NCBI GenBank assembly: GCA_018654845.1
Contig: JABIKU010000035.1
Location: forward strand, 62,001-126,000
Source: Methanobacteriota archaeon
GTDB lineage: Archaea; Thermoplasmatota; Poseidoniia; Poseidoniales; Thalassarchaeaceae
Reading direction: 5' to 3'
DNA length: 64,000 bases
Positions 58,421 to 64,000 of this stretch are shown piece after piece. Each line of letters begins with the position of its first letter. The stretch's first letter is position 1. Made by a program: the position numbers and the translations under genes. A model generated the notes under the pieces. The model was not told the origin of the DNA, did no database searches, and saw only the letters and a list, made by a program, of their open reading frames with translations.

Positions 58421-59326
58421 TCAGTTTTTTCTTGAAAAAATTACTTCACGCCAGCGAGGTCGCTGAATTTGATCTTTGGAATCTATAAATTTACGACGAA
58501 CCCGTAATGAAACCTGATCTATAATCACGACGACAACATACATTACGATAATCAGAGCAAGAACTCGGTCGTAAAGTTGGAATGGTGAAAGATAATAATT
58601 TAGGTAATACCCAATTCCACCGGCTCCAACCAAACCTATTACAGAGCCATGCCTAACATTGTATTCGAACATGAATAACATTTGACTAATGAGTGCATTA
58701 CTCGCTTCAGGTATAGCGAAAAAACGAGCGATTTGCCAGCGTGGTAATCCCATCGCTCGAGCGACCTCCAGGGGTTCTCTACTAACACCTTCAAGAGCTT
58801 CATACTGTAATTTCCCAAGATAACCCACTGTGTACATAGTCATCGCAAGGACACCGGCGAATGGCCCCAATCCCACTAAAATGACGAATATTAATGCCCA
58901 AATTAATGAGGGAAGGACCCTTAATGCCGAAAGTATTTGTCTAGTAATTTGAGCAAGCCAAGGGGGAGAAAGATTGGTTGCTGCCATGGCAGCAAGTGGT
59001 AAGGAAATCACCATTCCAAAAATTGTCGATAAAAATGCGATTTCTAAGGTCTGAGTTATGCCAATAATCGCTGGGCTGCAAGCCCAATCGGCTTCGAATG
59101 TACATTGTGGTTTAGACCAAGCGGCACGATCTGTAATGACAGAAAAATCAGGAGGAAAGGCCTCGCCCATGAGAATTGTTAAATTTGTTGAAGCTCGGCT
59201 AAAATCTGCAAAATTTATTTCGAGGTGTCGAATTGTTAATATTACTAATAATATCAAATAGATACCTGAGCGAAGAATCGGTCTATTTTTCAGAAAATGA
59301 AAAAAATCTACGATTCGATTTGACAT
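58421..59326 (-). CDS. phnE: Phosphonate/phosphate ABC transporter permease
   Basis: Membrane channel of a PhnCDE-type importer, 301 residues with about six helices. The inner-membrane signature EALEGVSREPLEVARAMGLPRWQI (EAA loop, about 178-200) contacts the ATPase. The family-typical FEYNVRHGSVIGLVGAGGIGYYL is near 220. The start is placed at ATG 59326, which follows the phnC stop by two bases with GGAGA upstream; TTG 59332 is possible. Last of the phnD-phnC-phnE operon. Confidence 0.93.
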   Translation of the reverse strand: MSNRIVDFFHFLKNRPILRSGIYLILLVILTIRHLEINFADFSRASTNLTILMGEAFPPDFSVITDRAAWSKPQCTFEADWACSPAIIGITQTLEIAFLSTIFGMVISLPLAAMAATNLSPPWLAQITRQILSALRVLPSLIWALIFVILVGLGPFAGVLAMTMYTVGYLGKLQYEALEGVSREPLEVARAMGLPRWQIARFFAIPEASNALISQMLFMFEYNVRHGSVIGLVGAGGIGYYLNYYLSPFQLYDRVLALIIVMYVVVVIIDQVSLRVRRKFIDSKDQIQRPRWREVIFSRKN

Positions 59327-59328
59327 TA

Positions 59329-60060
59329 TCAACGGTCTCCTGCCTGAGGAAGAGAATGCTTCTCATTCAAATTATCAAATTCTATCAACGAATTTCCTCT
59401 CAATTGTAACAACCTATCACAAAATGTCCTAGCACGCAGAGGATTATGGTCGACAATGCAAATAGCAATATCTTTCTCCTTTGCTAGGCTTCGCAATAAT
59501 TCAATAATTTCCTTCGCTGTTTCCGCGTCTAATTCTCCTAGGCATTCATCGGCTAATATCAATCTAGGATTCTGAACCATAGCCCTCGCGATGGCAACTC
59601 TCCTCTGCTGGCCTCCAGACAAACGATTTACAGATTCGAAAACCTTGTCGCTTAATCCAACAGCCCTGATTGCATCTTTTGTTGCTTCTTGTATTTCCCT
59701 GCTCGGTAGAGAAAGAACCGTTTGCAAATATTTTGCTCCTGGCAAGGCCCCCATCAGAACATTATAGCCAACGGATTGATGTTGGATTAATCCTAATCTT
59801 TGGGGGATGAGGGCAATAGAACCGCGTTTTGCGTTCATTGTCAAATCACAACAGCATTCTACGCTACCAGAAAGTGGCGATAATAATCCAGCAGCAGTTC
59901 GAAGTAAGGTAGTTTTCCCAATTCCTGATCTACCGATCAAGCCTACAATTTCACCAGAATTAATAGTTAGATTAACATCTTTGAGGAGAGGGTTTTCTGT
60001 TTCAAAACCAATCGAGGCATTTGAGAAATGCAGTCGAAGTTGATCATTGCTCAAGCCCAT
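59329..60060 (-). CDS. phnC: Phosphonate/phosphate ABC transporter ATPase
   Basis: Powers the importer. The 243 residues include Walker A GLIGRSGIGKTTLLR, Q-loop LIPQRLGLI, signature NRLSGGQQRRVAIARAM, Walker B LILADECLGELD and the switch His in VDHNPLRA. The N-terminus is close to the PhnC consensus. The gap to phnD is 16 nt and the stop lies 2 nt before phnE. Substrate can be phosphonates, phosphite or phosphate; no phosphonate-degrading gene is in the window. Confidence 0.93.
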   Translation of the reverse strand: MGLSNDQLRLHFSNASIGFETENPLLKDVNLTINSGEIVGLIGRSGIGKTTLLRTAAGLLSPLSGSVECCCDLTMNAKRGSIALIPQRLGLIQHQSVGYNVLMGALPGAKYLQTVLSLPSREIQEATKDAIRAVGLSDKVFESVNRLSGGQQRRVAIARAMVQNPRLILADECLGELDAETAKEIIELLRSLAKEKDIAICIVDHNPLRARTFCDRLLQLRGNSLIEFDNLNEKHSLPQAGDR

Positions 60061-60076
60061 GTCTCCTTCATCATGT

Positions 60077-61051
60077 TCAACTATCGTACTTCTCAGCGAA
60101 AAAATTAGCGATTCCAGGGATTGTACCTATCGCATCGCTATACGAGCCAAGATGACCTTCGGTTGTCACTTCAGAAATCCCCGGAGTATTCAAAACACCT
60201 TCTAGAATCTCTGAACCACCTTCTGCAGAATTCAAAGCCAAGAATGCATCGGCAATAACATCCATTTTTTCTTGGCTCAAAATTTCCATATTAATCATCA
60301 TCGGATGGCTAGGAACTCGTCCAAATGCAGGTGAGAGCAATCTATATTCTGAGCGATCGAGACACCAATCATTACCTTCACAATGATCTTCAAACGAAGT
60401 TGATTTTGCGAATGCAACATCGCCCACACCTTCAGTCATACAACGGAATCCACCGCTGTATCCGTAATACAGATCGCCTTTTTCTGGAATTGTTGCAGTT
60501 CCGAAGTGGTTTTCAATAATTGTTCTAAGACTATCGATTTCACTACTTTCTTCTGATACATCTATCAATCCGTTATTGATCATATAACCCATCGGCATCA
60601 GCATTCCAGCAGATTTTAACCAACCGGTGTGACAAGAGTTTTTTCCTTCCAAATCCTCAAGTGATTGTATTGAAGAATTCTCCAAAACCCAAGCTTGTGC
60701 AATATAGAAAGTTGAACCATCGCTGTTTTGATTAGCGAGAATAACGTCTAAACCATGTTGCTTCCAAGCGATGAATGCAGCGCCTCCGTCTAGGAATGCG
60801 ATATCGGCGTGCCCAAATCGCAATGCTTCAATCGCTGCAATATCTGATGAAATCGGATAGAGTTCAACATTAAATCCAGATTCGGCAGCGATAAAATCTA
60901 CTAATAATTGAGGATTTGCAGACGCGTCATTATAATCATCTTGAGTCTTGTATGCAATCCGGATAACGTCCTCATCAGATTGTTTGAGACATCCAGAAAA
61001 CGCAGTTGCAATAATTATTAATGTTATCACAAAAGATAGAAATTTTGCCAT
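60077..61051 (-). CDS. phnD: Phosphonate/phosphate-binding lipoprotein
   Basis: Captures substrate outside the membrane for PhnCE. The 324 residues start with a signal peptide ending in lipobox FSGC (Cys near 20), so it is lipid-anchored. The PhnD-like domain begins IRIAYKTQDDYNDAS and includes ALRFGHADIAFLDGGAAFIA, GKNSCHTGWLKSAGML and DVAFAKSTSFEDHC. Four Cys in the mature part could form disulfides. ATG 61051 lies behind GAGAG; TTG 61060 is an alternative. A TATA-like element and a palindrome lie upstream. Confidence 0.92.
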   Translation of the reverse strand: MAKFLSFVITLIIIATAFSGCLKQSDEDVIRIAYKTQDDYNDASANPQLLVDFIAAESGFNVELYPISSDIAAIEALRFGHADIAFLDGGAAFIAWKQHGLDVILANQNSDGSTFYIAQAWVLENSSIQSLEDLEGKNSCHTGWLKSAGMLMPMGYMINNGLIDVSEESSEIDSLRTIIENHFGTATIPEKGDLYYGYSGGFRCMTEGVGDVAFAKSTSFEDHCEGNDWCLDRSEYRLLSPAFGRVPSHPMMINMEILSQEKMDVIADAFLALNSAEGGSEILEGVLNTPGISEVTTEGHLGSYSDAIGTIPGIANFFAEKYDS

Positions 61052-61104
61052 TTCTCTCAAACTCCCCCCAGTTATTATGGTGCCTTAATCGACTCTGGTA
61101 TTAG

Positions 61105-61185: not shown

Positions 61186-63186
61186 ATGGCGGGGCGCATA
61201 TTCAATTGGGCAATGACTATATTTGTCGTTCTTGCATTATTATTGTCTACTATCTCTATCGATGAACATGAGAAGGAACTTCAGAAAAACGTGAAGAAAA
61301 TGGAACAATTAGGAGGTGGTGGAAGCCTTGAAGATCAATGTAGTTCCATAACATTCGAAGATCTTTTCGATTATTCTTCTGCCATATTTTATTTTGACAT
61401 TTCAGAAGATTGGGAGAGTGCAACAGTGACTGCAACCGCTTGGGTCAATGGGACTTCAACTGACGACCTCAGAACATCTCTAGATTCATTTCTAGAGGAT
61501 TTGTTCCCAAGTGGAGGCGATGGTTGGATTTCTACCGATGAAAGAGAGGCGGTTCGCGCAGTTGCATCGGAATGCATCGAGCATGCGTTAACTCGTATTG
61601 CATTCCGAGAAGGAGAGGCTCATCGGGGTGGGGTTGGAATCGATTGGAAAAATACTACATGGCAAAGTAACGGAGTTCAAATAGAAGAATGGAATTTAAT
61701 CCCTCCAAATCATGCTGAAAAGCGTGATTGCGAAACATTTGGTTCAAGTTCTGATTGTTTTGAGATTCCAGTGGCCCCTAATAATGACCGCGATTGTAAC
61801 ACTGCAATTGATGCTTCTTCTGGAATTGATGAGTGTCGCCTTGAGCTATGGATGAATGCAACATTAATGATTCCAGATGTCGAATCTGGTCAACAATATA
61901 CCCTTGCATTTAACGCATCAAATGTGACTCAAGCAGTCTACGAGTTCACATTCCCACCAACTACAGACCTTCGTATCGACATGTGGGAGGAATGTGAAGG
62001 GCGAGATGTTTCCTTTGAACCAGCAACTCATGCCGATGCTCCAATTAGAGGTACATGTTTAGGAGATGGTTCTTCATCTTACACAATAATAGAAAATGAC
62101 GATGGGAATTTAATTTACACACTAAGTCCAGTCCGACCACCAAGTATGTGGCCTAGTGGTGAAGATATTTTTGCTGATTTTACAATAACCCCTATCCCTA
62201 TTGATGAACCACCAATTTGGACAGATAAATCACCAGCAGATGGTTCATGGTTTACTTCTCCAAACGGTGGTGAAACACGGTGGGCATCTTGGGATTCAAT
62301 TTCGGAATGGTTCACAGATGATGGACCCGTGTCTCAACTCGATGTGGTTTGTATCGGTGAATCGACCTTGAATCTTCGACAATCAATGGATAATTCTTTG
62401 TGGGCTGAAATTCCTACCACAGATCTAGTCGAAGTGACCTGTGAGGCTGTCGACTCCGCGGGACAGAATAGTGGAAACCGTACTTGGCATCTGGGGGTTC
62501 CATTCACTATTTCTACAAACTCACAAGTAATGTCAAACCCACATGAAATAATTGTAACAAAAAATGTAGGTTGGCCGGCTTTGCAAATCGAAGTTGGTTT
62601 GACTCAGAATGGTGAAATCGGAGTTAGCGAGGCTACAACTTTGGATTCTGAATCCATCACAATCGCAGTAGCCTCGACAAATATGATTCCTGGCGGGGCA
62701 CAAGTGTGGGTAAGCGCATCGGGAGAAAATGTGTTTTCGATGGGCTACGTCTATGAATTGGGTATCTTCAAGGAAAGTTTACCGCCATTAATTTCTGTTT
62801 CAGAATCAGGTTGGGATGGATCGTTCTATCAAGCTCAAGGTCAATTCAGCGATCCGGATGGAGAAGCTGTTTCTTTCAGTCTAGCAATTGATGGAACTAC
62901 GGCAGGAAGCATCTCTATTTCAGGAAATTCATGGTCAACTCCACGGATTAATTTCGAATTATGGGAATCAGGTGAGCATAGTCTATTAATCACTGGCTGT
63001 GATGATTCCCAAAAGTGCAGTGAAGCCGTCATCGACATAAATAATTCTCACCTTTTTGAAGAAAAAATCATCGAACCAATCGAAAATAATCCAGACACAA
63101 GTACAGGCATATTACCTGCCGCTAGCTTGAGCTTGACATTATTATCCTTCACTATCGGTCTCATATACTCGACTCGTCGCGATTGA
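61186..63186 (+). CDS. Large exported surface protein, unknown function
   Basis: A 666-residue protein with an uncleaved or cleaved N-terminal helix (about 8-24), a coiled-coil-like segment, several Cys-containing beta-rich domains and a C-terminal helix (about 640-662) ending in RRD. WTDKSPADGSWFTSPNGGETRW and PPLISVSESGWDGSFYQAQG (near 560) recall Ig/Big-like surface modules, with DSAGQN and GCDDSQKC typical of adhesin repeats. No enzyme motif is seen. It is divergent from phnD and 3 nt upstream of the Gar1-like gene. Confidence 0.6.
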   Translation: MAGRIFNWAMTIFVVLALLLSTISIDEHEKELQKNVKKMEQLGGGGSLEDQCSSITFEDLFDYSSAIFYFDISEDWESATVTATAWVNGTSTDDLRTSLDSFLEDLFPSGGDGWISTDEREAVRAVASECIEHALTRIAFREGEAHRGGVGIDWKNTTWQSNGVQIEEWNLIPPNHAEKRDCETFGSSSDCFEIPVAPNNDRDCNTAIDASSGIDECRLELWMNATLMIPDVESGQQYTLAFNASNVTQAVYEFTFPPTTDLRIDMWEECEGRDVSFEPATHADAPIRGTCLGDGSSSYTIIENDDGNLIYTLSPVRPPSMWPSGEDIFADFTITPIPIDEPPIWTDKSPADGSWFTSPNGGETRWASWDSISEWFTDDGPVSQLDVVCIGESTLNLRQSMDNSLWAEIPTTDLVEVTCEAVDSAGQNSGNRTWHLGVPFTISTNSQVMSNPHEIIVTKNVGWPALQIEVGLTQNGEIGVSEATTLDSESITIAVASTNMIPGGAQVWVSASGENVFSMGYVYELGIFKESLPPLISVSESGWDGSFYQAQGQFSDPDGEAVSFSLAIDGTTAGSISISGNSWSTPRINFELWESGEHSLLITGCDDSQKCSEAVIDINNSHLFEEKIIEPIENNPDTSTGILPAASLSLTLLSFTIGLIYSTRRD

Positions 63187-63189
63187 GTT

Positions 63190-64000
63190 ATGAGTTTCAC
63201 CGGCAAAGTCGATCGACCTTCTCATGAAGGAGGGATTCTAGCCTCTTTCGAGGGTCGTGCACCTGGCCTTGGAACCGGTATTCGAATCGCCGGAGGGAAA
63301 TTCCTCGGTCGAGTAAATTCAGTCATTGGAGCGGTGGACGGAGCTTTTGTTCACATCTATCCGCTCGCGAAAGGAATTGAAGTAAACAATACTCTCGGCT
63401 CCCCCGTAGAAATAGCACCGCGTGACAGACGTCCACAAAACGATAGAGGAAACCGCAACTATGGCAGGGATAATCAATCGGGAGATCGCAGAGGTGGAAA
63501 TCAACGTAGAGACGATCGAAGAGGTAATTCTGGAGGCAATCGCTACGGAAACGACAATCGCGGTGGAGACCGCAGAGGTGGTGACAAAGGCAGGTCCAAT
63601 TATCGTGGTGGCTCAGAACAACGAGGAGGATATTCAGATCGAAGAGGCGGTTCTGGAGGCAATCGCTACGGAAACGACAATCGCGGTGGAGATCGCCGTG
63701 GTGGCAATAATGAAAATCCAAATATGAAGCCTGGAGACTGGCTTTGTCCAAAGTGTAAGAATCATAATTACGCTCGACGAGACAAATGTAACAGGTGTAG
63801 TGAATCAAAAGATGGAACGACACGTGGCAGTCGTCACACAAAGAAACGAGAGCGTCGACCCGACCGGCCGAAATACAAGAAATCCGATGAAAAAGGTAAC
63901 TCTAGCAGTGGCTCGAGCCGAGGCCCGAGATCTGGAGGTCGGTCTGGAGGTTACTCAGGTGGACGTGGCGGAAAATCCGGCGGAAAATCTGGCGGATATT
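63190..64000 (+). CDS. Gar1-like protein with RGG region and RanBP2-type zinc finger (3' end outside window)
   Basis: At least 270 residues, open at the right edge. Residues 1-78 resemble Gar1 of H/ACA RNPs (FLGRVNSVIGAVDGAFVHIYP). Residues about 79-177 are Arg/Gly/Asn/Asp-rich with many RRGG or RGG units. Residues about 178-205 contain GDWLCPKCKNHNYARRDKCNRC, fitting the RanBP2 zinc finger W-x-C-x2-C-x3-N-x6-C-x2-C. After that comes a basic Gly/Ser/Arg/Lys tail. The combination recalls eukaryotic FUS/EWS-type RNA-binding proteins. Expected role: RNA binding, perhaps rRNA modification or condensates. The start is ATG 63190, 3 nt after the previous stop. Confidence 0.8.
   Translation, partial: MSFTGKVDRPSHEGGILASFEGRAPGLGTGIRIAGGKFLGRVNSVIGAVDGAFVHIYPLAKGIEVNNTLGSPVEIAPRDRRPQNDRGNRNYGRDNQSGDRRGGNQRRDDRRGNSGGNRYGNDNRGGDRRGGDKGRSNYRGGSEQRGGYSDRRGGSGGNRYGNDNRGGDRRGGNNENPNMKPGDWLCPKCKNHNYARRDKCNRCSESKDGTTRGSRHTKKRERRPDRPKYKKSDEKGNSSSGSSRGPRSGGRSGGYSGGRGGKSGGKSGGY
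63529..63692 (+). repeat. 41-bp direct repeat inside the RGG region
   Basis: The same 41 bases occur at 63529-63569 and 63652-63692, both reading SGGNRYGNDNRGG in frame. The copies are exactly 123 nt (41 codons) apart and identical at the DNA level, which implies recent duplication or gene conversion in the low-complexity region. It is coding, not a CRISPR or mobile element. Confidence 0.85.

Follow-up and report, generated by a model that had tools for sequence, protein, structure and literature searches.

A Gar1 protein extended by an RGG region and RanBP2-type zinc fingers in the marine archaeal order Poseidoniales

Archaeal Gar1 helps to position the target uridine and to release the product by way of the Cbf5 thumb loop (PMC4551948), it is required in vivo for some rRNA pseudouridines (PMC6138745), and it is described in a review as having no glycine-arginine-rich (GAR) regions (PMC7991803). 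When yeast Gar1 is deprived of its RGG regions, the conformation and turnover of the particle are altered, and the RGG regions probably touch the substrate (PMC8096250). Among RNA-binding fingers of the RanBP2 type, finger 2 of ZRANB2 contacts GGU through D4, N14, an aromatic residue at position 17, R19, R20, and N24, with N14 and N24 reading the third base; replacement of R19 in some binding fingers leaves specificity unchanged, and the zebrafish ZRANB1-B finger, which does not bind RNA, has Lys at position 19 and Ser at position 20 (PMC6384913). We found no report, in the open-access literature that we searched, of an archaeal Gar1 fused to a RanBP2-type finger. Here, we describe such a protein in Candidatus Poseidoniales (Marine Group II), the order to which the named public records of its relatives belong (families Thalassarchaeaceae and Poseidoniaceae).

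The window, which is the whole 64,000-nucleotide stretch of DNA that was analyzed, ends before the gene does, and the reading frame that begins at 63190 is still open at the last base. The assembly contig supplies the 3′ end that the sequence-only reading had been without, extending the frame to a stop codon at window-equivalent position 64158. The whole gene is 969 bp long and encodes 322 aa, with 158 bases lying beyond the window (G000:C2:125190-126158; L007:2191-3159). Its layout is given in Table 1.

Table 1. Positions of the gar1 gene, its parts, and its upstream neighbor in window coordinates
Feature	Position	Strand	Basis
Upstream neighbor, 666 aa, hydrophobic N- and C-terminal segments	61186..63186	+	relatives in 90/93 gar1 loci
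gar1 gene (5′ 811 bases in window)	63190..64000	+	ORF listing, assembly contig
Gar1 beta-barrel domain, aa 1-83	63190..63438	+	family profiles, Pfam/NCBIfam, hhalign, AF2/Foldseek, dN/dS
Disordered Arg/Gly/Asn/Asp-rich (RGG) linker, aa 84-175	63439..63714	+	composition, AF2 pLDDT <50
RanBP2-type C4 zinc finger, aa 176-210	63715..63819	+	PF00641, PDB relatives, AF2, dN/dS
Zinc-finger core DWLCPKCKNHNYARRDKCNRC, aa 183-203	63736-63798	+	
Basic Gly/Ser/Arg-rich disordered C-terminal tail, aa 211-322	63820..64000, on to window-equivalent 64155	+	composition, AF2

The sequence-only reading had described a Gar1-like N-terminus followed by an RGG-rich region and a RanBP2-type finger, and it had named PF04410 and PF00641 as the Pfam families to look for. 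The second of these is matched by the window protein itself (aa 180-204; E = 1.7e-7, with 30.8 bits where the cut-off is 27), and the finger thus stands as described. PF04410, in contrast, is not reached by the window sequence alone in Pfam scans of the protein and of the genome, and the NCBIfam Gar1 model gives only E = 0.046. With the relatives included, PF04410 matches 16 of 18 aligned family members at E <= 1 (best 1.7e-5), and NCBIfam Gar1 models match up to 14 of the 18 (best 5.6e-8). When the family profile was compared with the PDB, the best matches were Pyrococcus Gar1 chains, with 2HVY at the top (E = 1.2e-4); a search with the same profile recovered the short Gar1 of other Thermoplasmatota, and profile-profile alignment with hhalign against ten of these short proteins gave E = 4.4e-13. 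The phylum-wide PF04410 search agrees, in that its matches in 15 Poseidoniales genomes coincide with matches of the N-terminal domain wherever both are listed.

The predicted structure leads to the same family. The AlphaFold (AF2) model of the barrel has a pLDDT of 91.9, and the top 11 Foldseek matches in the PDB are all Gar1, with TM scores up to 0.77 and a best E of 1.9e-3; the Gar1-like domain of Naf1 ranks below the Gar1 chains in that list. Identity between the barrel and P. furiosus Gar1 is about 24%. From these results, we conclude that the N-terminal domain is Gar1 by homology and fold, an assignment that is clear with the relatives in hand and weak from the single sequence. Chance likeness to Gar1 is ruled out by the profile, structure, and reciprocal searches.

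The finger is the only PF00641 match above the cut-off in the genome, and it fits the RanBP2 consensus W-x-C-x2-4-C-x3-N-x6-C-x2-C. Its closest PDB relatives are ZRANB2 (ZNF265), TAF15, RBM10, and FUS; a single Nup153 chain ranks among these, and RanBP2 itself comes far below. At positions 4, 14, 17, 19, 20, and 24, it carries D, N, Y, R, R, and N, such that every GGU-contact position is kept, with Tyr replacing the stacking Trp. The same positions are held across the order in 132 distinct fingers (numbered as in PMC6384913), where Asp4 is present in 132, Asn14 in 129, an aromatic residue at 17 in 132, Arg or Lys at 20 in 132, and Asn24 in 128; position 19 is variable (F, W, S, N, R, or K). 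Several Thalassarchaeaceae genera (L010, L011, L031, L035, L033, and similar) have fingers with a second knuckle of the form C-N-R-S/T-x-C, that is, Cys-x4-Cys and not Cys-x2-Cys. These fingers keep the four cysteines and often stand in tandem with normal ones.

On either side of the finger, the chain is low in complexity and predicted to be disordered. The linker (aa 82-173 in this count) is 29% G, 24% R, 15% N, and 12% D, and the C-terminal tail is 32% G, 25% S, and 18% R. In the AlphaFold model of the 270 in-window residues, pLDDT is below 50 at residues 84-175, 211-224, and 226-270, whereas the Gar1 domain and the finger reach about 80-95 (about 90 for the finger). Selection follows the same division, as estimated from one pair, the window gene and its nearest relative (L119), by a simple Nei-Gojobori count. 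The barrel (dN 0.017, dS 0.40, dN/dS about 0.04) and the finger region (dN 0.014, dS 0.49, dN/dS about 0.03) are under strong purifying selection, whereas the linker and tail are freer, with dN of 0.12-0.13 and dN/dS of about 0.23 and 0.17, respectively, while their composition is kept.

A separate canonical gar1 in the genome had been taken by the sequence-only reading as a sign that the Gar1 likeness was accidental; searching by PF04410 in the assembly, which is 86% complete, we found no second gar1. The genome also encodes Cbf5 (E=3.5e-89), Nop10, fibrillarin, and L7Ae-family proteins, the last assigned at the PF01248 level only. Neither Cbf5 nor fibrillarin of this genome has an RGG extension, and RGG is therefore not a general property of its rRNA-modification proteins.

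The gar1 start lies 3 bp past the stop codon of the 666-aa neighbor, which has no Pfam match and is a probable surface protein, membrane-anchored and extracellular. Surface protein, gar1, a TPR membrane protein (L007:3201-4265, in the block at 74 of 93 gar1 loci), and adenosylhomocysteinase (L007:4262-5527, on the opposite strand, at 48 of the 93) form a gene block that is conserved order-wide. With the probable surface protein and the TPR protein as its flanks, gar1 has no other rRNA-modification genes beside it. An ABC transporter set (permease, ATPase, and binding protein; 58421-61060, minus strand) adjoins the block, and many relatives likewise have transporter genes in the neighborhood of gar1.

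The architecture is not the oddity of a single genome that it might have seemed from one contig but a trait of the whole order. Of the 194 Poseidoniales genomes, most of them incomplete, 177 contain a Gar1 domain, nearly always in one copy, and 150 contain PF00641. Complete distinct Gar1 proteins from the order (n=95) range from 129 to 492 aa with a median of 291, and they carry from zero to four fingers, with one to four in 83 of them. At 29 of 30 loci selected for a finger, the finger and Gar1 lie in one ORF, and the exception sits at a contig edge; together with the recurrence of the architecture in both Poseidoniales families, this rules out contamination or a chance fusion. Candidate separate finger proteins in the order, where checked, were rejected: L214, which lies at the end of a contig, is gar1, and L066, which lies at the start of one, is a finger tail. 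Two records titled Rhodobacteraceae and Rhodobiaceae (L133, PARX01000028.1, and L180, CALDQY010000298.1) contain an archaeal gar1 and are mis-titled or contaminated bins.

Two genera, g4 and g8, keep the basic Gly/Arg tail with no finger, and the fingers are thus not indispensable. In the sister family of the same class, Gar1 is short, with open frames of about 75-89 aa, and PF00641 is absent among the matches listed. Because Gar1 is short in the sister family, the fusion most simply, and probably, dates to the base of the order, with later losses. Another Thermoplasmatota family (f11; L205, L207, and L209) has a longer Gar1 with a basic Arg/Pro/Gly-rich tail and no finger, which suggests that tails were gained more than once. 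Outside Poseidoniales, among the matches listed for the phylum, only one genome rises above the PF00641 cut-off (G197:C2:2900-2983, in a 465-aa ORF).

Compared with archaeal Gar1 (PF04410; the NCBIfam PRK13149 series; P. furiosus, PDB 2EY4/2HVY), the window protein is alike in its barrel (TM 0.77) and profile homology, in its single copy, and in the company of Cbf5, Nop10, and the L7Ae family in the genome. It differs in size, since archaeal Gar1 has roughly 75-105 aa and the protein here has 322, with a disordered RGG region and a zinc finger. Eukaryotic Gar1 (yeast and human) shares the plan of a Gar1 core with a glycine-arginine-rich extension, but there GAR lies on both sides of the core, whereas in Poseidoniales only a C-terminal tail is present, and a RanBP2-type finger is part of it. 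We know of no zinc finger in eukaryotic Gar1. A eukaryotic-type Gar1 is ruled out, as the window barrel starts within residues 1-4 and has only a C-terminal tail. The finger is like those of ZRANB2, FUS, EWS, TAF15, and RBM5/10 in sequence, in its four Cys, and in its GGU-contact residues, and the RGG surroundings are like those in FUS, EWS, and TAF15. The differences are that there is no RRM here, that the finger is attached to Gar1, and that many fingers of related genera have the Cys-x4-Cys second knuckle. Thus, the comparison with FUS, EWS, and TAF15 made in the sequence-only reading holds for the finger, as its PDB relatives indicate, but not for membership in the FET family, which is ruled out because the protein is built on a Gar1 core and shows no RRM in the Pfam scan. 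The Poseidoniales protein is a variant of Gar1, neither a FET protein nor a eukaryotic-type Gar1.

We consider it likely that this protein is the Gar1 of the H/ACA particle and that its tail keeps single-stranded RNA containing GGU close to the enzyme. The barrel would dock on Cbf5 and control the thumb loop, as its homologs do in other archaea, while the disordered RGG region would make weak, sequence-independent contacts with RNA. Each RanBP2-type finger, going by its conserved residues, may bind single-stranded GGU or GGG, and the tail would keep the rRNA substrate, or the guide RNA, near the catalytic core. By analogy with yeast Gar1, the Poseidoniales tail may work on turnover as the RGG regions do there, with the finger adding a preference for GGU/GGG. 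Points against this reading are the shortfall of the single window sequence against PF04410, the fingerless tails of g4 and g8, and a gene neighborhood that lacks other rRNA-modification genes.

The same tail could instead serve mainly in multivalent assembly, with RGG and fingers drawing pre-rRNA and H/ACA particles together in a condensate that resembles a nucleolus. The long low-complexity RGG segments and their predicted disorder are consistent with this, as are the multiple fingers that many species have in a single chain, the layout like that of FUS and TAF15, and the nucleolus-like body that has been proposed in Saccharolobus (PMC9932318). However, this explanation rests on composition, which by itself does not show phase separation, and in this genome neither Cbf5 nor fibrillarin carries such an extension; we regard the explanation as unlikely. 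Decidedly unlikely, in our judgment, is the broader proposal, in which Marine Group II either acquired a FUS-like RGG/zinc-finger module on Gar1 or evolved one on its own, and in which this module enriches H/ACA particles together with pre-rRNA in a nucleolus-like condensate, in convergence with eukaryotic GAR-tailed nucleolar proteins.

Two further explanations would move the protein away from RNA-guided modification or the finger away from RNA. The divergence of the barrel from P. furiosus Gar1 and a gene context unrelated to rRNA would suit a Gar1-derived RNA-binding protein that has departed from the H/ACA particle to act in a different RNA process, but the gene is the sole gar1 candidate in a genome that retains Cbf5 and Nop10, and the barrel is under strong constraint and rarely occurs in more than one copy per Poseidoniales genome, which makes such a departure highly improbable. 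That the finger binds protein, in the manner of Ran- or ubiquitin-type fingers, is the least credible of these explanations and a very slim prospect: the RanBP2/NZF fold does bind proteins too in eukaryotes, and Nup153 fingers are among the lower-scoring relatives, but the nearest relatives are RNA-binding fingers, the RNA-contact residues are kept, and the Arg or Lys at position 20 is invariant across the order, as against Ser in ZRANB1-B (PMC6384913).

The absence of GAR regions is what separates archaeal from eukaryotic Gar1 in the review cited above (PMC7991803), and the whole order Poseidoniales is an exception to it. Poseidoniales (Marine Group II), the most abundant archaea of the surface ocean, add GGU-type fingers beyond the RGG tail. 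Lineages with zero to four fingers provide a natural series for testing the effects of Gar1 tails on RNA-guided pseudouridylation, and the same series bears on the question of the RGG domains in yeast and on the evolution of nucleolar-style tails outside eukaryotes.
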